From the NCBI GenBank assembly GCA_037042915.1, contig CM073193.1:3224001-3288000 (forward strand): DNA of 64,000 bases, given 5' to 3'. A program made the translations under genes and the position numbers. This DNA comes from Auricularia sp. M13. Lineage: Eukaryota > Basidiomycota > Agaricomycetes > Auriculariales > Auriculariaceae. Of the stretch, positions 11,426 through 51,400 are shown one piece after another (within the stretch, counting starts at the first letter, position 1; the number at the start of each line of letters is the position of its first letter). The notes beneath the pieces are model-generated. The model saw nothing but the letters and a program-made list of their open reading frames with translations, had not been told where the DNA came from and ran no database searches.

Positions 11426-14400
11426 ATGCTGTCGCTGTGGAAAAAGACGGCTCAGGAAAGCTCGGGCGACGCGCAGTCTCATAGCAGAAAGCTCGACGAC
11501 GTTGATGGCCTTGACCCAGACCCGCGGCCGGCGAAACGTAGCCGGCTCGAGACCAGTGGTGCTGCTGCTGCACCTGTCCTTAGTAGCTATGCACCTGTCA
11601 AGGAAACCACAACCCATGCTCAACAGACACCTCTCTATGATGCCAAACTGACGGATACTGCGAAACTTGTCAATAGTGCGTCTGCGTTTTCCTCCTAGCA
11701 CCCACCGTTAATATTTTCCCAGCCACTGCTGCTTTCGACAGCTGGAAATGTCAGTAAACCGTGTTCCAGGTTCTCCTACTCATTATGCGCCTTGAATTAG
11801 CGTTCTGCGAGCCCATGAAAGCACTGGTTCTTCACTTCATTGCTGTGGAAGTCGACTTCGGGTTTCGTCCGACATCGCCAGGCTCTCGAATTCCCGTATA
11901 CGTGATCGACGATTCTGGAAATATGCCTCGCATATCACAGGCATTGGCCACCGCTACCGGTGTCATTGTGGGAGCATGTAGCGGCACGCTCACACTGGCG
12001 GCATGGAGAAAGCTGTCGCTTTCGTATGACCTCCTCGTCATCCATGGACCTACCTTTCTCTCGGCTTTGAGGGCTCATATTGCAACAGCAGCGGATATGA
12101 GCCTTTGTGTCATCGACAGTGTCCTATTCGATGTCGCTGTAGACGCCGACTTGCTTCGGGAACAGCTGTTTACAGGCGTTCCGGCGAGTCAGCGTCCGCG
12201 TCTGTTTGTCCCATTGCTGCACAGGCAGTCGGACCCGAGAGCGACAATAGCTGCCAACCTCGGAAGGATAGCTGTAGCGTCGTCGTGCACTGTCTACACT
12301 ACAGACGAGAATTCGCCTCAGGCTGATGGCGCGGAGAGTGCCAATGATCTATCTGGAAGTGAAGATGAGTCCATGCAGTCAAGCCACGCGGTCTTGGAGG
12401 ATCCCATCTCTGGTGGGACCATTACTCTCCAGAACGCCGTTCAGATCTCTAGACGGCTAGCGGCTCGAATGGGTAGCCAGACTACGCCTTCTGGGCGACT
12501 GTTGTTCGCATACACCAGAAGCGCATCTTCAGCCTCACAAGTGTCTTGCACCGTGTCACTTTCTGCGGAACGCATCGACCTCCATGTTCAAGGTCGATTT
12601 TGCGAAAACGAGGGCGACGCGCAGCGAGCAGCATGTCTGGAGTTATGTACTCGTCTCCACCGGATGGGCCAACTCGACTACCGCCTATTTCCAGCCCAAC
12701 CAGCGGGAGCCTTTCCACCAACAGCCGCAATTGGCTCTGACCATCTTGCTGGATCGGAAGCTGGTGTCAGCAAATACCCACGACACAGAGTCGGGTTTTG
12801 GAATCACAAAATGGGCGACGGACTTTTGTACCCCTCCGTGATATTTATCGACGGCGCCGACGAACTTGGTCTGCCCAGGCGGCCGATGTTGCTTCTGACC
12901 AAAGCCCCGCTCCCAACGCTCGAGGCATTTGACATCTACTTTGACGGGCAGCCTTCCACGGTGCACGTGCAGTCACCCGGCCCGCCGTTCCAGCTCTCAG
13001 ACGAACGGCTGATCCTCCTGCAACGATACACCCTCAGGGTTGCACGTGCTATATCCAACAAACCCATGACATGCGCGCTCGAGCAAATGCCATACTTTCT
13101 TGCGCCGTGGGATGCCGCGTTTTCCCTTGAAGACAGTCTTGTCTCGGATCGGATTCCTTGGGACACTGAAATATTGGAAGGGGCCACGGGGTACATCACC
13201 GCCGTGCCGAAGGAGATGTTATCTCTGGAGCCACCTGCGCTCTATGATTTTGTGCTGCAGGATCGTTGGGCGGAGTATACCCGTCGATTTCGGGCTGTTG
13301 CTATCCGCCACGATATGAATCCCAACTCGAAGCCACCACCAAATGCAGTAAGTCGCAGTTCCCAACGCTCTTAGAGTCGTGATCAAGCACGCTAAAGACA
13401 CCGCAGGCTGGTGTTCAACATGAATCCTTCCTTCAACAGTATACATCGCGGCTGAAGACGCCGTTTGCCGGGCTCAAGGATGAATCACAGCCGCTCGTCG
13501 AGGTCGCTCGTCTTCCCGGTCTCATAAATCGACTCTTCCCGGCATCCCGCGCGATAGAAGACACTGATCCGCCAAAATGTGTGCTATAGACCGTCGCAAA
13601 GTTCTCTCGTGCTTACCAGAGCTGCAGTCGTCATTCCTGAAGTCTGCGCGCGGTTTGTTATCCCTGCGAGGTGCGTTTAAACTAGCATATCGATGCACAA
13701 GATGTGCCTAAGCAAGCAACGAAGCACTTTCGAGACAGCGTATCTCATACCATGCTGCCTTCGGCGCATAGAGGATACACTACTCGTCAAGCTACTGAAT
13801 CACCAGTTTTTCAACAACGAGATAGAGGAACGGCTCCTCTTGTCTGCCATCTCTTCGCCGTCCCTATGCGGGGACTTGGACTATCAAAGGCTCGAATTAC
13901 TAGGTACGCCATCGGTTTGCTTGTGCCGCAGCAACACTGATGTCTCTTAGGCGACTCTGTCTTGAAGTTCCTGGCATCTGCGGCTCTGTTCGTTAGGAAG
14001 CCGAGCAGCTCTGAAAGCGAGCTTCATCTGGGAAGGCAGGACATCTTCAGCAACCGCGCGCTATCGCATGCAGCTCGACGCGCTGGGCTACCACCCTTCA
14101 TTCTCACAAAGCCATTCTCGATCAAGTCTTGGATCCCGCCCAACTGTGATTTCGAAAGAGCTCCACCCAAGCCGCTGTCTGAAGAGGATGCTCTCAATCC
14201 CGACAAGGTCGCGGCTTATAGATTGGCCCGAGGTGTGCAACAATTTTCTTTCTCTTTTCCTACACTCATCGTATACGTAGAGCGCGATCAAAAAGCAGAT
14301 GAGCAAGCAAGACTGAAGCGCCAACAGGACGCATCAGAACACTGGATTGGAGAGAAGACCATCGCGGATGTTACAGAAGCCATCCTCGGCGCCGCGTTCC

Positions 14401-15661
14401 TCACAGGAGGGAAAAATCTCGTGTTACGCGCTGCACGACGACTTACGGTCGCACTTCAAGACTATGTGGACGTGAAAGCGAACCTCCCAGTGAATGGTCT
14501 AGTGCAGATAAGAAACGATTCCTTCAAGCACGTCGAGCATTTACTTGGACGGGCCATTCGACAGCCGCACCTTGTTGCCCAGGCATTGGTTGGTCGACTA
14601 ACTCATACGATCATATACACTCTGACTTATACCGCCCTTGAGACTCACTCGGCGATTGACTCGAGTCATGCGACATCGTACCAGAGGTATGTCGGTTTCT
14701 TGCCCATAATGCTAAGTCTCAACATCCTGAAAAGACTAGAATTTCTCGGAGATGCCATCCTTGACTTACTTGTCGTCCGTCACATCTGGCGTTACGAGAA
14801 GCTTGACCCGGAAGCGTTGACGTTGCTGAAAGTAAGCTGGCATAATTCTGTGACGAACTGACATATTTATGAGCAATATGCAGGCAGCGATGGTCTCTAA
14901 TAGCACGCTGGCTGCCATATGCGTTCAATGCGGCCTGCATAAGCACATCAAGCACGCGTCTCCTTCCTTAGGCGCAAAAATTGATAACTATGTCAAGGCC
15001 CTGCAGAGCGCGCGCGACAAGGAACGGGCACTCGCACAGAGTGAAGTTCGGCAGCCTGTTCAGTTTTGGCTTGAGCTGGAGCACCCAAAGGTTCGTACAT
15101 AAACAGCCCTCGCTGCTCGCTCATCTCCAATGCAGCCATTATCGGATTTGATTGAATCTCTCCTGGGAGCTTTATTCATATCTGAGAACTACGCGATCGC
15201 TCCCTTGGAGGCGTTCTTCGAGAATGTCTTGCGACCATTTTACGACGAGCATATTCGCCTCAGCAGCTGCTCGTCACACCCAACGACGACTTTGTTCAAA
15301 ATGCTGGAATCCAGGAGCTGCCAGCATTTCGAAATGGCGAGGACTACGCAGAAGGCGGCGGCCTACCACATTAATGGCAAGCGGTTGATTTGGCGCGCGC
15401 ATTCGTTATTTTGACCGAACTGCAGTCGTCATTCACGGCACAGTACTTGCGAGTGCCACGGGTAGCAATAAGGGAGCCGCAGAGCGCAGGGCTTCATTCG
15501 AGGCGCTCCTTGCCTTGGAGCGAGACCCTGGCTTCCTCGTTCGCACATGCGATTGTCGCGCGACGCTTGCGATGAAAAAGCAGGCAAAGCAGGCGGAGAG
15601 GGCGGCTAAAGCTGCGAATGTTGGAGGGAAGAAGAAGGGGACAGCTTCGAAAGTTGTGTGA
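11426..15661 (+). CDS. DCL: Dicer-like RNase III with ATPase-dead, truncated helicase region
   Basis: Dicer-family protein that would cut dsRNA into small RNAs. Exon 1 (11426-11675), a 27-bp exon (11723-11749) and exon 3 from 11801 are in phase. They give TTAAFDSWKSFCEPMKALVL where Dicers have the Walker A strand (GSGKT is absent). The DECH position is CVIDSVLFDV (residues about 195-204), also without the motif. Helicase domain 2 is missing: an acidic linker leads straight to a Dicer-dimerisation domain (GGTITLQNAVQISRRLAARM to QLDYRLFP). A platform/PAZ-like region follows. RNase IIIa has DYQRLELLGDSVLKFLAS and IADVTEAILGAAFLTGG. RNase IIIb has YQRLEFLGDAILDLLVV and LSDLIESLLGALFISEN. All acidic catalytic positions are present. 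The C-terminus is Lys-rich (TLAMKKQAKQAERAAKAANV). Two joins near 13570-13860 remain unresolved. The protein is probably near 1,250 residues, shorter than full Dicers. Confidence 0.88.
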
Positions 15662-28778: not shown

Positions 28779-30200
28779 ATGGCGTCCGCGGAATCTGGCT
28801 CTGAAAACTATACGGCTTTGGATGCAGAACTCTCCGGACAAGCTGGACACCTCTCCGAAACGCAGCAAGCGGCCTTGGCCTCTTTTAAGGAGCGTATCGC
28901 TCAAGCTGGCGTATATCGTCCTGCAGTAGCCGCAAGCAACGACAAGCAGGCTGCGTTGCCTTCGCACGACGACATTACATTGCTGTGAGCGCGTCCATTG
29001 CAGCTATCGCCGATGCTGAGGCGTCAATACAGTCGTTTTCTTCGCGGCAAGGGTTTCGACGTAGCCAAAGCCACCTCTCAGTTCCTCCAGTCCGAGGAAT
29101 GGCGGAAGACGAACGACGTTGCGAAGATCTACGCGAGCACAACTCCGGAAGACCTGCGCCATACGCGCTTATTCTTTCCACGCTGGACTGGTCACAGAGA
29201 CAAGGTATGCACTACGGCTTGCCGTCCTTGAGAGAAGAACTGCCCATTGCTTACCGTACCCTAGATGGGGCGGCCGCTCTACGTCTGGAGCTTGAAAACA
29301 GTGGCACCGAGAGTCAAGGAGCTCACTGATCTCACACCTCAACGTCGGCTTGAGAAAATGTGCGTGTACACCCAATTTTATACAAACACGACCCTAATCA
29401 TACTTGTGCATTAGGATTGCGCTCTACGAGAACTTACGATTGTTCACAATGCGCCTATGCTCCTCTTTGCCCTCGGCGTCATTCCCGACACCAATCTCCA
29501 GCACTTCTAACATCATTGACCTGGATGGCGTCTCATTATCGCTCATATGGACACTGCGTTCTCACCTACAAGCAAGTGCAGGTATGGCCTCCACAAATTA
29601 CCCGGAGTTCATCACGCGTGTGTTCGTGGTCAATGCGCCGTATTTCTTCCCGAAAGTATGGGACTGGGTCAAGGTAGGCTCGTGTTTCTCGACATTTCCT
29701 GCTCATATCTGAAATTCTCGGCTAGGGTTTCTTCGACGAGGGAACGCGGAACAAGGTCTTCGTCCTTGGTACAGAGCCAGGCCCTGAGCTGCTCAAGCAT
29801 GTCAACGCTGCCGACTTACCCAAGATTTACGGTCAGTATACGACCAATTTTGTGTCGCACAAGCTCATAGCGCTATAGGCGGAGAGTTGGATTGGTCTCT
29901 AATTGATCCACCTAAACTGGATGAACCCGCAAAGGCGCTGCTGCAGCGAGAAGAGTTCCCAGATGGTGAGCTGCCCAGCCAACGTTTTGTCTGGCTATTA
30001 CTGATGTAACAGGGCCCTTTGTATTCGTCGGAGACGGTCTTAACAAAGGACGCATCGTCGATTTCGATCCTGCCGACCCTTCATTGGAAGTTCAACGCGA
30101 TTTCTTTGAGGCACCCAAAGAGGAGACGGTCATTGACGCCAACGATGCCAACGGCGCCAGCGGCGCCAACGGTGTCAATGGTATTGAACACGATTCGTAA
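28779..30200 (+). CDS. Sec14-like phosphatidylinositol transfer protein (CRAL-TRIO)
   Basis: Lipid-transfer protein of the Sec14 family, which moves or presents phosphatidylinositol and other lipids. It begins MASAESGSENYTALDAELSG. The CRAL-TRIO N domain reads SETQQAALASFKERIAQAGV, then by splicing DITLLRQYSRFLRGKGFDVA and FLQSEEWRKTNDVAKIYAST. The lipid-binding domain shows MGRPLYVWSLKTVAPRVKEL, IALYENLRLFTMRLCSSLP, NIIDLDGVSLSLIWTLRSHL, ASTNYPEFITRVFVVNAPYF, FPKVWDWVKGFFDEGTRNKV, LKHVNAADLPKIYGGELDW and a final strand GPFVFVGDGLNKGRIVDFDP. The Y-P-E/V-N-A-P...W...K.F motif is diagnostic. It ends in an Asn/Ala/Gly-rich tail. About seven introns. The organelle it serves cannot be told from sequence. 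Confidence 0.92.
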
Positions 30201-30476
30201 ATAGACGCATATACGGACAGACCATTTGTGCATAGATTTGCTGAGTATGATTCAGTACATTGCGGCGGGAGGGCGGACGACGGTCGGTTCCGAAGGAGTC
30301 GCTGCATAGTCACGCCAACCACCGCTCCCTTTGACTGGATGCGCGGTACGGCGTGGACATGACTCACACGTTTGCCTTCGACTGAGCCGAAGACTTTCGA
30401 CTATATAATTGCGCTATGTCGACCTGTGGTCCCCACTCATCAACGTCCCTTACCAGCAAGCTTTCGCTCAATCCAT

Positions 30477-33400
30477 ATGGCGAATTCAGAGGGTTCGCCC
30501 ATGACGCTGTCGTCATATTCCACCGCGTGCGTTTTTCTGCCCGCCATCACTCTGCAGAGCAGGTTGAACGCCATACGAGTGGTACGTGTACTATCTGACT
30601 TCAGGCTTACTTGATAAACTTTTGCCTTTAGGTCCACGATAAAGCCGGGACGAGATGGCCAGCACACTTAACGGCGTTGTTCCCTTTCGTTGAACCTGCT
30701 CATCTTGCTGATGCCGCTGCACATCTCCAAGCAGCAGTTTCAGCGGCGGCATTGGAGCCATTCAGTGCGACACTGGATCACGTGGACACCTTTACCATGC
30801 GCGGGTATAAAACCGTGTACTTGGCCCCCTCTCTTGCTGCCTCCGCGTCAATGCAGGCTGCCTGGAAGGTCGCTGCTTCTGCATTTCAGTATTCTGGTCG
30901 AGCGTTCGTCCCGCACCTCACCCTCGGTCAGACGCCGCATACCGAGAGCGACTTGCGTTTCCTCATGTCGAAGGGCGAAGCTCTCATCGAGACCGGCCTT
31001 CACTGGGAGACGAGCAGCTTTGCGTTATTGCGCAAAGACGAGGCTGACGGTGGACGCATGAAGATTGCCCATGTCGTCGAGTTTCGAGGGTCATTGCCTT
31101 CGGCGCTGCTCCTTCCTCCGCCAGACCACTTGCCTACCTATGTCTTCTCGCCGACAACAGACTCTTGGATCCAGGCGCCGGCCGCGGTCCCTTCTCTGGC
31201 GGTAGACGTTCTCCGGTTTGCGACCTTTAATATTCTCGAAGACGACCGTTTTCCCTTTTCGTCCAGGGCAGCCAGCGTCGTGAATGCTATTCTGGAATCT
31301 AGCGCCGACGTTGTTGCCCTGCAGGAGATGTCTGCGACAAGTCTGCGTTATCTTCTTGCTGCGTCGCCTCTGCGGGATCGCGGCTACCACTGGTGCACGC
31401 ACGATCCATCCACAGTATTCCCACTTCACAGGAACATCGTTGTGCTGAGCAAATTTCCAGTCGCATCTTGGACCGTGGTGAACCTCGGCGACAAGTTCAA
31501 GCCCGCGGTCCTGTTGTGCATGTCCCAGGCTGCTGGCCGAACTTTGACTGTCGTGGCCGTGCATCTATCTGCAGGGTACAGCTTCGAGATCTCCGCGAAG
31601 CGCGGCAAAGAGCTTGATACCCTGTCGTCTATCCTGCGTTCGCAGTTCGAGGACGATGACTGGGTTGTCCTGGGCGATACCAACCTTCAATTGTCGGACA
31701 GAAACCCTGATGGCTCAGTTTTGGTGGACACCTGGGAGCAGTGCGGATCTCCGCCAGAACTCGAGGCGTCTTTCGAGCCTGAGATCAATTCTCTGGCTGC
31801 TCGGACGTCCCGACAGGACAAATCTCCCAAGAGATATGACCGCATCTTTGTCAGGAACGCGCGATTCACGGCCATATCATTCTCTCGGTTCGGTCTCCCC
31901 TCATCCGCTTCAGCGGCTCCCGCTAGCGATCACTGGGGCATCGCAGTGTCTCTGAAGCTAGGCGCCCCGGTTCTTGCGGTCGACGAGGCACCAGAACAGG
32001 ACCCCGTCTCTTGGCTCCCGTTGATCCCCACCACTCTCACGGACTCGGAGCTGTTGAACTTCGCCGAGCATCATCAGCTCATACCTGATGAAGCCAATTT
32101 CGCTAGCTGTCAGGCGGCCGTCGACGCAGTCAGAAGCCTTGTCTGCTCTCGTGCAGACAATACCCTCTCCGGTAGTGCTACCGTTTGCCTCAGACTTGCC
32201 TCGGTCGGTAGCTTCGCTCTTGGGGTCAGTGTTCCCGAGTCAGATGTTGACTGCCTAGCTGTCGGCAACATATCACCCGATACATTTTGGGAGTTGATGC
32301 GAAGCCGCCTTCGTACTCTTGGCTGGCCAAATTTACACAGAATACGCCTTCGCCGCTTTGTCAAGGAGGCAACTGTGCGCATGATGGAGCTGTCTGTTGG
32401 CAACATCAAAGTAGACCTGCAATATTGCGCAGCTCCTCGAGTTGCAGAGAGGTACGTCTTATATCCTCCATTAGTCATTGACTAACTGTTAAACAGCTGG
32501 GACTCGATAGCTGCACTGCCCTCCAACAGCGCCGTATTCTCCCTGCCAGTCTCATCTCTTCGCACTCTCAATGCGTACCGTGACTCTTTGGCGCTTCGTG
32601 CCGCCATACCAGCGGGACTACAGTCTGCATTCCGTCTCGCCCATCGCTGCCTGCGACATTTTTGCAAGCGCCGCGGTATTTTCTCGTCCAAGCATGGCTA
32701 CTTTGGCAGCTTTCATCTGTCCATACTCCTTGCGCGGCTAATCAGCTCACTCCCACCCTCGGTCACTGCGCAGCAGCTCGTACGATCGTTCATAGCGCAT
32801 TATTCGTCCTGGAACTGGGCCAGCGATGCAGTCTACGTCGGTGCGATTCGCGAGTATGCGCGCACCGGACGAGAGGCCATGGTGATTCTCTCGCCGGAGA
32901 GACCGTCGTTCAATGTCTCGACGAGCGCTACTAGGTCGACCGTGCAAATCATCACCCGTGTCTTGGTGGACGCCGAACGTCTTCTCACAGAAGGCGCTAG
33001 CTGGGCGCGAGTCTGTGGTCCGGGACTGGGTTCCTTCCTTTCATCCCACCAGCGATTTGCGAAAATCGATGTCACCTACTGGGGCGCGAGCTCTATGACG
33101 GGTCGTGGGCTCGTTGGCCATCTTGAAAGTCGGTTTGTTCACGTACGTAATATATTAGTCTCGTGTCGTGGAATACCTCCTCACAAGCTTTTACCACAGT
33201 TACTTGTGCAGTTGCAGACCGCTTTGCCCACACTGCAGGCACAACTCTGGCCTGAGCGTTTGGCCGATCCGAATTCAGCCGATCCAGAGGGTAGCCTACA
33301 GGCCTTCTATCTCATCGGTCTGTCTGGTTCCAATCTCGATGCCTCAGTTCAAACGCGTCTCGCACTACTAGAGGCTTTTGCGGACGACATCCGCGAACAT

Positions 33401-34060
33401 GCTCGCTACTACGATGCGGCGAACTCCTTCGTCTACGCATCGGAGGTCACTAGCGATCGCCTTGGTGTTGTCGCGCTTGACTCGTTTTCTTGGCCCGATG
33501 GGGGGATAGACGAGGCCGAGGCCGAGGATTCGGATGACGAGGACGAAATACGTGCTGACGACGATTTCGCACGAGCTCGAGGCTCCGAATTTGCGCTCTC
33601 GCGGCGGAAAAAGGACAAGAAGGCCAAATCCAAGCGCGACACCAAGTCTCCCTCGCTTAGCACCACCGCAGGCACTGGTACCGCGAAGCTGCGCTCGAGT
33701 GCCGACGTTTATAATCGGCTCATGTGGGACTCCGGCGTCTCACGTGAAGACTACCTGATCGGATACGAAGATCGCTTCAAAGGACTGAAGGAGATGCCGC
33801 TGAGCGCGTGGAAGCGCGAGGTCGAGGATGAGGCCTTCGTGAGTTCTCAACGATAAAATCCTCTAGCTGTTGACTAATTCTCATCGTTCCAGATTCCGTT
33901 CCATCGCGTCGTGCACTTCAGGCGACGAAGTGATAATGTCATTGTATGGGATAGGTGAGCACGTGCCTGCTTGAGCCGTGGACCTTTTTGACAGTCAAAC
34001 AGGGCAAAACGCATTGACTTGCTCTTTGGCAGTGGTGTCAACATTCCCGACGGTTCTTAG
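30477..34060 (+). CDS. Four-domain RNA-end protein: 2H phosphoesterase, EEP, poly(A)-polymerase-like, MJ1316/DUF504
   Basis: One polypeptide of about 1,050 residues with four domains. (1) 2H phosphoesterase: two HxT motifs, PAHLTALFPF (residues about 45-54) and VPHLTLGQTP (about 129-138). (2) Endonuclease/exonuclease/phosphatase fold, about 230-475: FATFNILEDD, VVALQEMSA, VVLGDTNLQL, YDRIFVRN and ASDHWGIAVS, so Asn, Glu, Asp/Asn and His are all present. (3) Poly(A)-polymerase-like nucleotidyltransferase, from about 555: ASVGSFALGVSVPESDVDCL, a later GNIKVDLQY, and the central block RCLRHFCKRRGIFSSKHGYF plus STVQIITRVLVDAERL. (4) MJ1316/DUF504 domain at the end: VYNRLMWDSGVSREDYLIGY, IPFHRVVHFRRRSDNVIVWD, RAKRIDLLFGSG. 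A basic and acidic linker with RRKKDKKAKSK precedes it. Exon 1 (from ATG 30477) joins NAIRV to VHDKAGTRWPAHL. It converges on PRX1 with 71 bp between stops. RNA repair or end editing is inference from the domains. Confidence 0.88.
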
Positions 34061-34131: not shown

Positions 34132-34975
34132 TTATGCGTCAACCTTGAACTCCGTCGTGCGCAAGTAAGGCTTGAGCGTTTTGTAACCAGGGAAGAGCTT
34201 GGCAGCCTCATCGTTCGACACGCTGGGGTGGATGATGACAGGATCGTTCCTGTTCCAGTTGACCGGGGTCGTGATGCGGTTCTTGTCGCCCAGCTGGAGC
34301 GAGTCGACGACGCGCAGAATCTCGTCGAAGTTGCGGCCAGTTTGTGCGGGGTAAGAGATCGTCAGGCGAATGACCTTCTTGGGGTCAATGACGAAGACAG
34401 TGCGAACCTGCGCATTCCAGATGAGCGCATGATTGCGATACGTGGGAAAGTCAGCATACAGTGAAGGGGAGGCCCTTGGCGTCGACGTTGGTCGCATCCT
34501 GGTAGTCGAGCATGTCGTACAAGGTCGAGATCTTGCGGTCCTTGTCGGCGATCTGTCCAAGGGCGATTAGATTAGACAAGCCAAATCGGCGGATCGGGCT
34601 ACGACGCACGATGGGGAACTGGACGTGGGTGGGCGCGATGGACGCGCCGACCTCCTCGATGTCCTTGATCCAGGCCTCGTGCGACGAGAGGTCGTTCGCG
34701 CTGAGACCGATGACCTTGACGCCGCGCTTCGCGAACTCGGGCGCCTTACGGGCGACCTCGCCGAGCTCCGTCGTGCAGACGGGCGTGAAGTCGTCCGGGT
34801 GCGAGAAGAGGATGCCCCAGGAATCGCCGAGCCACTCGTGGAACTTGATAGGACCCTGCGTCGTCTCTGCCTCAAAGTCGGGCGCGATGGAGCCGAGACT
34901 GAGAGCGCGTCAGTGTCGCTCTTCCGGCCTTCAATCCTGAGACACCTACCGAAGAGTGGGAGCTGCTTGGGCCAT
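34132..34975 (-). CDS. PRX1: 1-Cys peroxiredoxin (PRDX6/Prx1 type)
   Basis: Thiol peroxidase reducing hydrogen peroxide and organic hydroperoxides. After MAQAAPTLR and an intron it reads [40 protein letters not shown] (peroxidatic Cys in PVCTTE), [36 protein letters not shown], then FPI joined over an intron to [20 protein letters not shown]. The C-terminal domain has [40 protein letters not shown] and [20 protein letters not shown], ending [15 protein letters not shown]. The TPVNW and P.VS..EA blocks mark the 1-Cys group rather than typical 2-Cys enzymes. No clear mitochondrial presequence, so probably cytosolic. Length near 220 residues is normal. Confidence 0.95.
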
Positions 34976-41791: not shown

Positions 41792-42618
41792 ATGGCCACT
41801 AACTCTAAGGTATGCGTACCAGTCGCTGGCGGACCTGTCCATGCTCACGCGTGTTGCAGTACATCACTCAGCCTGAGATGCCTGAGGCCATTTGTCGCAT
41901 GGTTCTCCGTGAGGAGTGCACACCGCGGCACGTCCCGTGGACGTTGCAGGCGAACGAAGTTGCCGACCGCGTCTATGTCTCCGACCTCTACACCGCTACC
42001 TCTGAAACAGCTCTCACTGAGCTCGGCGTCACGCACGTTATTTCGCTCCTGCAAAACGACGTAACCCTTCCGGTCCCCGTCAAAAAACATCTGCAGCTAC
42101 ATATCGCGGATGTTCCCCAATCGAACATCCTCCAGCACTTCCAGGAGACCACGCACTTCATTCGCGACGCGTTAGCTGCTTCGGATAACCACAAGGTTCT
42201 CGTCCACTGCGTCTGGGGCATGAGTCGCAGCGTCTCGGTCGCCATCGCGTATCTCCAGGCCACTCGCGACATGCTGTATCACGAGGCGTACAATATCGTC
42301 AAGGAGCGCCGGGGCTTGGCCTGCCCCAACCCAGGCTTTAGGACGCAGCTGATTCGCTATGGCACGGAGATTGGCGTACTCGTGCGGCGCGCCCAGAAGT
42401 CGCAATCGACACGGATTCGCCAGTCACTTCTCGAACGAACGCCGACTCACTTTGGAGCGCAGACCAACTTTGAACAGTCGTTATCGCCCATGTGCGTCTC
42501 TGCTCAGTTTCCGATCCGTCACGTACCACAACTGAACTGCATTCGGGTTCCAGCACAAATGACGATCGGGGAATGGTTGCGGCAGCCCATAAGAAGTGTG
42601 AAAGCGCCGTCTCCCTGA
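41792..42618 (+). CDS. Dual-specificity protein phosphatase
   Basis: Cysteine-dependent phosphatase of the DUSP/VH1 class. A tiny first exon (MATNSK) is spliced to YITQPEMPEAICRMVLREEC. Then EVADRVYVSDLYTATSETAL, TELGVTHVISLLQNDVTLPV, LHIADVPQSNILQHFQETTH and the P-loop KVLVHCVWGMSRSVSVAIAY (C-x5-R present), followed by YNIVKERRGLACPNPGFRTQ. The general-acid Asp is in HIADVPQS. The C-terminal 90 residues (RRAQKSQSTRIRQSLLERTP and beyond) are not recognised and look disordered. About 255 residues. The substrate cannot be told from sequence; no MAP-kinase docking (rhodanese) domain precedes the catalytic domain. Confidence 0.92.
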
Positions 42619-47094: not shown

Positions 47095-48479
47095 TCAGCG
47101 CCGTTTATATTCGCAAGGCTGTAGGACAGTGTGCTGAGCGAGGAGCTTGTTCCAGGATTTTTCGCTTGGAGGAGCTTGGGATACTTTGCGGAATTCAAAG
47201 AGGGAGAAATGGGTGCTAGGATTATCCTGCAACCAAAAGAGTTAGTTGAGGCACCATGCAAGCAGACGATTCATCGTACTCTGCTCAATAACTTGAAGCC
47301 GATTGTCTCGACGACAGAGACGAACTTGTCAACGTCTTCAAACCGGCTTGTAACCTCTGCTATTTTGAGCAGTCCCCTAGAAATGCGCGCATTGGTTTAA
47401 GAAACACTGCGTGGCGGAATGCACGTACCTGGACTTGAGCACCCGTCTGGACTCGCGAAGACATTGTACCCAATTGGAGTTCATGAGACTGAGTGCGCAG
47501 ATGCAAACGTCCACGACAGCGGCTTCGCTATCCTGCTCTGGGTCTTCGCTCCCCGGAAGTGGAATCTTGGTGCAAATGTCCGCCTCGATGATCCAAGGAC
47601 TCTGGGAAACCAAGTCGAAGGAGAGCACCGTGTACCCTTGTGGCACAAGAGCGCGCGCAAGGGCCGCTTCGCCGCATCCAAGATCTGCGATAATGGCCTT
47701 TGTGGGGAGCTTGGAGCATTGGTCGATGTAAATGTCGACAGGGTTGGTCGGCCAGGATTCGACTTGTCTTCTGAAGCCTGCATGGTACTGTATGCGACAT
47801 GAGAGCAGCGCAAGTTGAGGAAAGGGATTGCGCACGTCTTCAAAGATCTTGGGGTCATTCCGTATCATGCTTGTCGCTTCTGCACTATCCGACTTGTAAA
47901 GGACTTCGTTTATCCACCTGCACCGCGTAAGAATAGTCTGAACGCGAGGATAAAGTAATATCACCTGAAGCGGGCGCCATCCAGCTTGCTTTTCATGTTG
48001 GATTGCAGGGACGTGAGAGAACCAGACGCGTCCTTGGACTGGGACGGTGTGGCCTGTTGTGGCTTTGCGGCCACGGCAGGCTGCAGTTTCTTCTTGTCCT
48101 TCGCGGCAGGCTTTTGCTTCTTGTGCAGCGAAGGCGCGTCGCGATGCTCGGCGGCCTTTGGTTCGCGTTTCTTTTCCTTCTTTGGCGGCGCGTCGTTGGC
48201 CTGGGCGAGCTGCTTGTCGATCTTGTCCATGAGCTTGCTCACGTCCACGCCTTCCGCAGCGGCGCTCGAGTTGGCCCGTTTCCGTTTCTTGCCATTGGCC
48301 TTGGCGGCCTGCGCGCTGGGGGCAGGCGCTGCAGACTCTTCCCAGCCGCCGTCGAGCATACCGTGACCGTGAACGGACTCGGAGGGCCGCGTCGGAGTCT
48401 TTTTTCGCGTGCTTTCGCCGTGATTGCGTGCTCGCGAGGTCGGCCACGCTCTGAGCGTTTCCCTCCTCCCGTGAGCCAT
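47095..48479 (-). CDS. RRP8: RRP8 rRNA (adenine-N1) methyltransferase
   Basis: Nucleolar SAM-dependent enzyme that methylates an adenine of the large rRNA. The disordered basic N-terminus (NGKKRKRANSSAAA, PPKKEKKREPKAAE) leads to LTSLQSNMKSKLDGARF, then RWINEVLYKSDSAEATSMIR, NDPKIFEDYHAGFRRQVESW, PTNPVDIYIDQCSKLPTKAI, IADLGCGEAALARAL (SAM motif I), YTVLSFDLVS, EAAVVDVCICALSLMNSNWV and RESRRVLKSR. C-terminal exons give ELKIAEVTSRFEDVDKFVS (partly inferred) and SWNKLLAQHTVLQPCEYKRR. The longest frame starts at 48479 with an ATG overlapping the MET10 ATG; an inner Met at 48359 (MLDGGWEESAAPAP) is equally plausible. Confidence 0.92.
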
Positions 48480-51400
48480 GTCTGGTCGCTCGTCGCCCTC
48501 GACGCACTCGACGACGCTCACTAACCCGTCCGCCGCAAAAGACAAGCTCGCGGACGCGCTCCCGCTCCTGCAAGCCCCGCGTCTCTCCGCCACCGCGCAT
48601 ATAGAGCAGCTCGCGGCCCGCAACAGCTCGGCCGTCTTCGTATATGACCTTGCCGCCCAGGTTGGCATTGGTGCCGCCCTTCCCAGAGATGGCGACAGCG
48701 CCGCCGTAGTTAACATGCAGACTCGCCCGGGCGCGGGTCTCATCCTGCTTGGTCGTCTGTCCGAAGGCAGCAGCAAGGACGGCGGCTCAAAGCTCACCGC
48801 TTTCACCACACCCGCTGGCCTCGAGAAAATGGCCGGTTATCTCGCCGATTTGCCAGAGCCTAAGCCGGATGCACGGCTCGCGCTCCAGGTCGCTGCTATC
48901 ACGCCCGCGCCCGAGTCTCTGTCACTCTCCCCCTCGCTCAACCATCTCGCCAGCGCCATCGAGGTCCTTCCCGCAAACACGGCTGTGCTTTTCTCCAGCG
49001 GTGCGCAGGAAGCTATCAACTTTGCCGAGGTGGCCTACAAGACGACAAGCCACCATGTTGTTCACATCTTCGACCATCACGGGGCCGCTCGCGAGTTAAC
49101 AAACACCCGCGTCCCAGAACCCGACGAAATGGCCTCCGGATCGCTTGACGAAGTCCTCTTTCAAGCTGGAGTCCAGCCTTTCTCATACCACGGCGATGCG
49201 AACGCGACTTCCGTGCTCGTCCTGCTCAACGGTCCTCTGGCAGTCTTGGCCAAGGCTCTGACAAAGAATACCGCAGGGCTGGGCATTCTTGTCGTGCGCG
49301 TTCTGCGTCCTTGGGACCGCGAGGCATTCCTCGCCGCCATCCCTGCCTCGGTCACTTCACTTCACGTCGTGGACGATGCGTCAACGACCAAGTTGAGTGG
49401 CCCGCTTTTCAGTGACGTATTCGCCGCCGTCGCGGGTACCTCGCGCTCTATGAAGGGTCATCACCCGTCCCCGCAGCAGCTTCTGGATAGCATTTCGTCC
49501 GAGGAGAATTTCCGCGGTTTGCTCAAGGACCTGGGTCTCCCGCCTTCAATGACAATAGCGCCTCTCCTCGATACCCGCGATAAGAAGATGCTGTTCTTCT
49601 CAACGCCATCCAGCAAGACAGCCGCCTTGCCGTTGGTCGTCGCGCACGACTTCCTTTCAAACAAGACCCTATCGGCGCGCCTCTCTACTGAGCACGACGC
49701 GTTTAGTAAAGTCGGCGGTGTCACGTGCTCGCGCGTCTTGTTGTCGAACAAGGCAGACGGGGCCGCTGACGACGACCTGCCGTTGTCGTTTGCTATCCCT
49801 ACTGCAGGGCCAGCACCGCAGGCCCATTTCCTGGGGATATTAGATCAAGCACTTCTCAGGACGCACGATGTTCTTCGCGGCGCGCGCCAAGGTGCTACAG
49901 TGCTCATCGGCTCGAGCTGGACTGTCGATGAGCTGTTGTCGAACGTCGCTGCGCCTTCGCTTGCACTGGCGCAAGAACGCAAGCTCCACCTTTTCCTCAT
50001 TGACACGGCAACCATCGCTTCTAAGCTCACTTCCGGGAGCACCGACATTTTGGAACTCGTTGTTGCACACATCGCGTTCCTCAAGCTGTACATGGGCCGT
50101 GCTGGCTCCTTACCGATTCTGAGCGAGGTCGCCCGAGCTGCATTTGGCGCATCGCTCGAAAACGTCGACGTCGCTCACATCGCTGCAGTGGTCTGGCACG
50201 AGCTAGCTGAGGTCTATCTTCCGCCGGAAGTCGCGGCTGCCGACCCGGAGGCCAAGTCTCTCAAGTCATTCAGCTTCAATACTGTCACACTCGAAGAGGA
50301 CAGCAGCGCGCAGGACGTTCTCAAGCCGCGCACAGGGACCCTCGCGCAAGCGATCAAAGCCGTGCTCTTCCGTGAGGCGCTCTCGCCTCCCACGCCCAAG
50401 AACACCGAGGATGAGATCCCCGCTCTGCGGCCCGACCTCGCGGAGCGCACCTACATTCTCACCTGCAGCGTCAACCGTCGCCTGACGCCGCGCGAGTACG
50501 AGCGCAACGTGTTCCACATGGAGTTCGACACGACGGGCACGGGGCTGCAATATGCGATCGGTGAGGCGCTGGGCGTGCACGGGTGGAACGACGAACAGGA
50601 CGTGCTCGATTTCTGCGCGTGGTACGGCGTCAACCCCGACCGCACCATCTCGCTGCCCGTGCCCGACTCCAACGGTACACTCCGTCACGTCCGCACGGTG
50701 TTCCAGGCGCTGCAGCAGCAAATTGACCTCTTCGGGCGCCCGCCAAAGAGCTTCTACGCGGCGCTGGCGGAGCATGCGGCCACCAAGGAGGACAAGATGG
50801 CGCTGCTTTTTATCTCGAGCCCCGAAGGCGCCGCGACGTTCAAGAAACTTGGCGAGAAGGACACGGTCACTTTTGCGGATGTTTTGAAGCGCTACTCGAG
50901 TGCGCGCCCACGTATCGAGGATTTGTGCGAGATGGTCGGCGACATCAAGCCGCGGCACTACAGTATCGCCAGCGCGCAGAGCGCAGTGGGGGATCGAGTG
51001 GATTTGCTCATCGTTACGGTGGAATGGGCTACTCCGAGTGGTACGTAGCTCAGTAGATGTGCGATTTTCCTTGCTGACTATAATGATGCGCAGGATCTCC
51101 TCGCTATGGACAGTGCACGCGATACCTTGCTGGATTGAAGGTTGGCCAGAAAGTGACTGTCTCCATCAAGCCCAGCGTAATGAAGGTCCGTTTTGGCGCC
51201 ATTGATCCCTGTGCTTCCTGACGTTTTGTGTGCAGCTTCCGCCCGACAACCTGCAGCCTATCATCATGGCAGGCCTCGGCACGGGGTATGATGACTGCAT
51301 CGTCCTTCTTCTCGCCGTTCTAACGGAACGCGCAGCGCAGCGCCTTTCCGCGCGTTCATGCAGCACCGGGCGCATTTGGCTTCGCAGGGTATAGAGAGCG

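Follow-up and report, generated by a model that had tools for sequence, protein, structure and literature searches.

A fungal protein with 2H, EEP, poly(A)-polymerase-type and MJ1316 domains in one chain: a possible remodeller of RNA 3' ends

In the tRNA ligases of yeast and plants, according to a passage of PMC3400036, the 2H domain converts a 2',3'-cyclic phosphate into a 2'-phosphate and a 3'-OH. For the EEP enzyme ANGEL2, a section of PMC13247085 describes removal of the cyclic phosphate with a 2'-phosphate as the intermediate, leaving a 2',3'-OH end. Recognition of 2',3'-cyclic ends is attributed to the MJ1316 domain, and eukaryotic fusions of MJ1316 to RNA-repair domains have already been published; both statements come from a passage of PMC6514570, which for the fusions cites Burroughs & Aravind 2016. 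Here we describe a gene of the fungus Auricularia sp. M13, at positions 30477-34060 on the + strand of a 64,000-nucleotide stretch of contig CM073193.1 (assembly GCA_037042915.1, positions 3,224,001 to 3,288,000; hereafter the window). Its predicted protein of 1109 amino acids (aa) joins a 2H phosphoesterase, an EEP domain, a transferase of the poly(A) polymerase (PAP) type and an MJ1316 domain, and may remodel RNA 3' ends.

The gene model, derived from the sequence, has six exons, begins with an ATG at 30477 and ends with a stop codon at 34060, and no internal stop is left once the introns are removed. An earlier note on this DNA had given the same limits, which coincide exactly with the ATG-to-stop span of the model with its five introns. 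All of these introns are GT..AG, and the gene style of the window looks eukaryotic and fungal: genes are closely packed, and their GT-AG introns measure some 50 bp. The parts of the gene and the domains that they encode are the following.

30477-30581, + strand: exon 1, aa 1-35, with the start codon and the beginning of the 2H domain
30552-31039, + strand: 2H phosphoesterase domain, aa 26-171, PF13563 (2_5_RNA_ligase2), interrupted by intron 1
30582-30631, + strand: intron 1, 50 bp
30632-32451, + strand: exon 2, aa 36-642 with a split last codon, free of stops; remainder of the 2H domain, whole EEP domain, palm with three Asp
31220-31933, + strand: EEP domain, aa 232-469, PF03372 (Exo_endo_phos); TDP2-like among solved structures
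32174-32451, + strand: nucleotidyltransferase palm, from about aa 550, with GS, D573, D575 and D630
32452-32496, + strand: intron 2, 45 bp
32497-33142, + strand: exon 3, aa 642-857
32630-32989, + strand: PAP central domain, aa 687-806, PF04928, with R695, F704, S706 and F714
33143-33199, + strand: intron 3, 57 bp, open in frame
33200-33838, + strand: exon 4, aa 858-1070; what follows the central domain, then the acidic/basic linker and the beginning of MJ1316
33419-33691, + strand: linker of acidic and then basic residues, aa 931-1021
33692-34003, + strand: MJ1316 (DUF504) domain, aa 1022-1091, PF04457, split by introns 4 and 5
33839-33892, + strand: intron 4, 54 bp
33893-33954, + strand: exon 5, aa 1071-1091 (last codon split)
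33955-34002, + strand: intron 5, 48 bp
34003-34060, + strand: exon 6, C-terminus and stop codon

Judged from the sequence, the four domains sit in one gene. Exon 2 is a single open run of 606 codons, which at the base composition of exon 2 has a probability of about 1.6e-9; 500 mononucleotide shuffles yielded stop-free runs of no more than 255 codons. Because this uninterrupted exon carries nearly all of the 2H domain, the EEP domain and the palm, these are not adjacent genes run together. A reading of neighbouring genes as one is ruled out by the joining of 2H, EEP and palm within exon 2, and exon 4 in turn connects MJ1316 with what follows the central domain. Intron 3 has no in-frame stop, and its retention, a possible form, would add 19 residues after the PAP central domain. 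Occurrences of CTGAC, a sequence resembling a branch site, were counted but gave no information, and Rfam and tRNA scans of the window gave no match.

We called domains on the whole 1109-aa protein with the Pfam gathering scores as cut-offs. Four families scored above them, in the order PF13563 (2H), PF03372 (EEP, E = 5.4e-15), PF04928 (PAP_central, E = 9.6e-12) and PF04457 (MJ1316), while Nrap_D2, Exo_endo_phos2, LigT_PEase, NTP_transf_2 and PAP_NTPase matched below; the 2H and EEP pieces scored somewhat better when searched alone. For comparison with proteins of solved structure, we used phmmer against PDB sequences. The earlier note had claimed these same four domains in one chain, and Pfam, the PDB alignment and the motifs bear out both their order and their key residues. 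That claim had been made to depend on profiles detecting the 2H and MJ1316 domains, and Pfam found both (E = 9.4e-21 and 1.2e-16). Of the families named there for a profile search, 2H, EEP, PAP_central and MJ1316 passed their cut-offs, whereas NTP_transf_2 fell under its own (E = 0.062). The motifs that it had listed, namely two 2H HxT motifs, a full EEP residue set, a nucleotidyltransferase signature (SDVD) with a later VDL Asp and a PAP central block, and a C-terminal MJ1316/DUF504 domain, are all present at the positions given below, and each predicted domain is found with its catalytic or family-invariant residues. A scan for close viral relatives gave 71 pattern matches, none of which was confirmed.

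The 2H domain covers its profile nearly end to end and carries two HxT motifs, H47/T49 and H130/T132, as do the PF13563 2H phosphoesterases of the 2'-5' RNA ligase superfamily, to which it can be assigned. Two 2H-type NCBIfam models matched as well, the better at 2e-5, both under their cut-offs. Against PDB sequences the 2H piece found no related solved structure, the only rows being two gasdermins (E = 0.41 and 2.1). The chemistry that we propose for it is that of the fungal and plant tRNA-ligase 2H domains, which are described in the passage of PMC3400036 without a PAP-type transferase or MJ1316.

The EEP domain likewise belongs to its family by both its PF03372 match and its residues, with the N (N235), E (E267), D/N (D384, N386) and D/H (D468, H469) all kept. 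Among PDB sequences, TDP2 accounted for 11 of the 13 distinct sequences matched at E <= 10 and for 11 of 11 at E <= 1e-5. The best TDP2 match, at 4.4e-8 in this comparison with solved structures only, spans nearly the whole domain, and the GDTNL and SDHWG stretches are common to both proteins. The remaining two matches (E = 0.28 and 0.74) look like chance, the latter being to an OAS-like protein of another fold. EEPs of the CCR4, ANGEL and PDE12 types have solved structures, and none of them matched up to E = 10, so that no closeness to these types was found. An NCBIfam nuclease model matched at E = 0.07, under its cut-off. The domain is like TDP2 in having it as the sole significant solved-structure match and in keeping the catalytic residues, and unlike it in being part of a fusion and in the modest degree of the similarity. 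For ANGEL2, the chemistry is the same as that proposed for this domain, and the section of PMC13247085 describes that enzyme without a PAP-type transferase or MJ1316; the sequence comparison separates the two, with no ANGEL match among those listed above.

The transferase is, by its sequence, of the canonical poly(A)-polymerase type. When aa 504-929 were compared with PDB sequences, all nine distinct sequences matched at E <= 10 were poly(A) polymerases, the best being PAP gamma at 1.4e-16, and aa 550-828 align to poly(A) polymerase gamma at 1.2e-15; NCBIfam gave no model for the transferase. Palm and central domain are both present, as in PAP gamma and alpha, yeast Pap1 and Pla1, with the motif residues G561, S562, D573, D575 and D630 kept. 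We transferred the positions of yeast Pap1 by pairwise alignment to chain 2hhp_A, in which D100 and D102 correspond to D573 and D575 and the stretch from F687 to F714 is ungapped; the residue equivalences rest on such pairwise alignments. N189 and V141 of Pap1 are kept as N667 and V617, and four positions are changed: K215 to R695, Y224 to F704, N226 to S706 and V234 to F714. According to a passage of PMC7470959, Asn226 of the yeast enzyme contacts adenine N6, the residues equivalent to Lys215 and Tyr224 possibly make contacts to phosphate and ribose, and Val234 is stacked against both ribose and base. Thus, the earlier view that all catalytic positions look intact holds for the catalytic residues, the three Asp being kept, but not for the ATP/nucleotide pocket: the protein has the palm and central domain of a canonical PAP and lacks its adenine-reading Asn226 and its ATP contacts Lys215 and Tyr224. 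Since these pocket residues differ from Pap1, the added nucleotide may not be A.

Its fusion to 2H, EEP and MJ1316 domains also sets this transferase apart from canonical PAPs, and the C-terminal region may do so too: no RRM-like RNA-binding domain was detected there, with no Pfam match at aa 804-958 and no PDB match to a PAP at aa 779-929 (E <= 10). The limits of the Pla1 match, however, reach query aa 863 and Pla1 residue 401. After aa 806, LVGHLESRFVHLLVQL resembles the RNA-binding motif of PAPs, but the region alone had no Pfam or PDB support.

The MJ1316 piece gave no match among PDB sequences, and the NCBIfam model PRK04257 (hypothetical protein) matched it at 1.3e-8, under its cut-off. 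Pfam titles this family 'RNA cyclic group end recognition domain', in agreement with the account of the MJ1316 domain that Burroughs and Aravind reportedly gave in 2016. A direct scan for prokaryotic relatives of the fungal domain produced 23 pattern matches, 0 of them confirmed; relatives were found in archaea through the Pfam model instead. Of the 36 genomes in the phylum to which Methanocaldococcus sp. SG1 belongs, 29 had a PF04457 match, as did 56 of the 59 in the class of an Archaeoglobaceae metagenome-assembled genome. In a mixed set of 10 archaeal genomes there were 3 with a match, and two of these three are also in the phylum and class counts. Among 14 control genomes it occurred only in M. 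jannaschii and S. acidocaldarius. The archaeal domains stand alone, all 85 of the phylum and class matches lying in open frames of 77-128 aa, whereas the fungal domain is fused.

From the 86 distinct archaeal matches we made 32 into loci, and phmmer with the fungal piece found 28 of these. Five residues that are invariant in all 28 archaeal sequences are present in the fungal domain (W1033, R1049, P1072, H1074 and R1075), which together with the PF04457 match places it in the family. Three columns conserved in 21-27 of the 28 also match (N1029, Y1046 and I1071). The frames of the four loci outside the alignment (L123, L146, L150 and L151) hold the same five residues by eye.

We also surveyed the genes within about 1.5 kb of the archaeal loci, clustering the neighbours and scanning one representative per reported cluster. 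An ArsR-type regulator was found at 15 of the 32 loci, TrkA/DHH proteins at 9, CBS proteins at 9, radical-SAM/UPF0004 proteins at 6 and BtpA at 6. A Clp1-type protein lies near MJ1316 at four loci, L123 (Methanocaldococcus sp. SG1) and L128, L129 and L135 (genomes of its phylum); the P-loop protein of L135, which was the one scanned, matches PF16575 at 6.7e-45. Because Clp1-type proteins include RNA 5'-OH kinases, these four loci, and only these, speak for RNA ends, and they hint that stand-alone MJ1316 works on such ends. Taken together, the archaeal neighbours give mixed and weak support for the function of MJ1316.

Beyond the domain assignments, what the protein does is something that we infer. 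Our preferred reading, which we hold tentatively and at somewhat less than an even chance, is that a single fungal protein remodels RNA 3' ends, one chain binding, opening, dephosphorylating and tailing them. MJ1316 would recognise an RNA end with a 2',3'-cyclic phosphate left by an RNase. The 2H domain would then hydrolyse the cyclic phosphate to a 2'-phosphate and a free 3'-OH, as in the fungal and plant tRNA-ligase 2H domains, and the EEP domain would take off the leftover phosphate. A PAP-type enzyme requires a 3'-OH, and on the clean 3'-OH the transferase would put one or more nucleotides, possibly with a specificity other than for ATP. We prefer this reading because, in the biochemistry of these families, the product of each step is the substrate of the next. 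Candidate purposes in the cell are RNA re-use, decay marking and repair. The earlier note had proposed that the protein could bind a cyclic or damaged RNA end, clean it and extend it, and this fits the domains and the published biochemistry of their families. Two findings modify that proposal: among solved structures the EEP domain matches TDP2 rather than an EEP of the deadenylase or 2'-PDE type, and the pocket residues of the transferase are changed.

Several results weigh against this 3'-end reading. The strongest is the TDP2-like character of the EEP domain, which matches TDP2 and not ANGEL2, the enzyme from which the phosphate-removal step borrows its chemistry. In the MJ1316 domain, eight columns conserved in 20-26 of the 28 archaeal sequences differ in the fungus (D1034, S1035, W1061, V1076, H1078, F1079, N1085 and R1091) and two more conserved columns fall in a gap, so that ten commonly conserved columns in all differ or are missing. 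A likely RNA-end enzyme is a neighbour of archaeal MJ1316 in only 4 of 32 loci, other neighbours being commoner. Finally, structure prediction without an alignment gave a mean predicted local distance difference test score (pLDDT) of 34.7 for exon 2 and 36.7 for exons 3-4 through intron 3, and these models were of too low a quality to be used.

A different reading of the same domain set is an RNA decay or tailing factor, in which the transferase oligo-tails fragments as marks and the EEP and 2H domains trim or undo these tails, setting the state of the 3' end rather than repairing it. Enzymes that tail RNA and EEP deadenylases are known to oppose each other, and the adenine-reading position of the transferase pocket is changed. 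We nevertheless consider this unlikely: the EEP domain has no deadenylase-type match among PDB sequences, and MJ1316, as described in a passage of PMC6514570, suggests cyclic ends.

With a TDP2-like EEP domain, the substrate could also be a 5' end or an adduct, an argument that the restriction to solved structures limits both ways. On such an account, the EEP domain removes a bound tyrosine, peptide or other 5' block from a protein-RNA adduct while the 2H domain and transferase treat the 3' end. The uniform set of TDP2 matches, their extent and the shared GDTNL and SDHWG stretches all point this way, but the similarity is modest, solved-structure EEPs are what was compared, and the remaining domains do not imply TDP2 chemistry; we regard this account as quite improbable.

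Less probable again is a 2'-5'-oligonucleotide enzyme, whose transferase would make 2'-5' oligonucleotides for the 2H and EEP domains to destroy, much as OAS is paired with AKAP7- and PDE12-like enzymes. Phosphodiesterases acting on 2'-5' bonds occur in both the 2H and the EEP family, PAP and OAS have a common fold, and Pfam reports the 'PAP/OAS-like' domain of Nrap below threshold (25.2 bits against a cut-off of 33). Set against these are the exclusively PAP matches of the transferase, the lack of any PDE12 match to the EEP domain up to E = 10 with the OAS-like match read as chance, and the fact that MJ1316 has no known place in a 2'-5' pathway. A partly inactive protein, with a transferase that does not bind ATP and serves only as an RNA-binding scaffold, is very improbable, for although K215R, Y224F, N226S and V234F fall at the phosphate, ribose, adenine N6 and stacking contacts given in part of PMC7470959, the GS motif and all three Asp remain, as do N667 and V617, and the K-to-R, Y-to-F and V-to-F changes are mild.

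Returning to the reading of one-chain remodelling at 3' ends, we can also imagine a more specific version, although it is a long shot: a re-terminating machine for RNAs, such as tRNAs, that bear a 2',3'-cyclic phosphate after ribosome rescue or the action of toxin nucleases. Here MJ1316 would find the end, the 2H and TDP2-like EEP domains would strip it, and the PAP-derived transferase with its altered pocket would rebuild the 3' nucleotides; an example substrate would be a P-site tRNA once the nascent chain has been removed.

Other genes were seen in the window. Just upstream, at about 29500-30201 (+ strand), lies a gene that, judged by eye, may encode the C-terminal part of a Sec14/CRAL-TRIO lipid-transfer protein. 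The C-terminal part of a 1-Cys peroxiredoxin (PF10417, 5.6e-8) is at 34132-34560 (- strand), tail to tail with the four-domain gene, its frame ending about 70 bp beyond the stop codon of that gene. About 16 kb upstream of the four-domain gene, two frames at 11758-14858 (+ strand) gave matches to the Dicer dimerisation domain (6.6e-9) and to RNase III (4.6e-26); they probably belong to a single Dicer-like gene. A dual-specificity phosphatase (2.7e-27) at 41809-42615 (+ strand) has a weak Rit1 DUSP-like match just above the cut-off. A protein of the Methyltransf_8 family, to which the rRNA methyltransferase Rrp8 belongs, is encoded at 47380-48786 (- strand) and an FAD_binding_1 protein on the opposite strand at 48475-51045 (+ strand); the overlap of their stop-to-stop frames may be without significance.

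The locus is a fusion of known domains within an already proposed theme. Like the eukaryotic fusions of MJ1316 to RNA-repair domains that Burroughs & Aravind 2016 are cited for in the passage of PMC6514570, it joins MJ1316 to RNA-end enzymes in one gene, and the earlier suggestion that related fusions may have been noted in surveys is borne out in general form by that passage. Searches of the open-licence literature on the domains and their fusion, covering titles and the starts of abstracts, found no study of this four-domain order. If active, the protein would reveal a way of repairing RNA ends in fungi that ties recognition, clean-up and re-extension together covalently. It would also offer a direct test of MJ1316 binding, the proposed product of one domain being the substrate of the next, and its changed base pocket predicts the addition of something other than, or beyond, adenosine.

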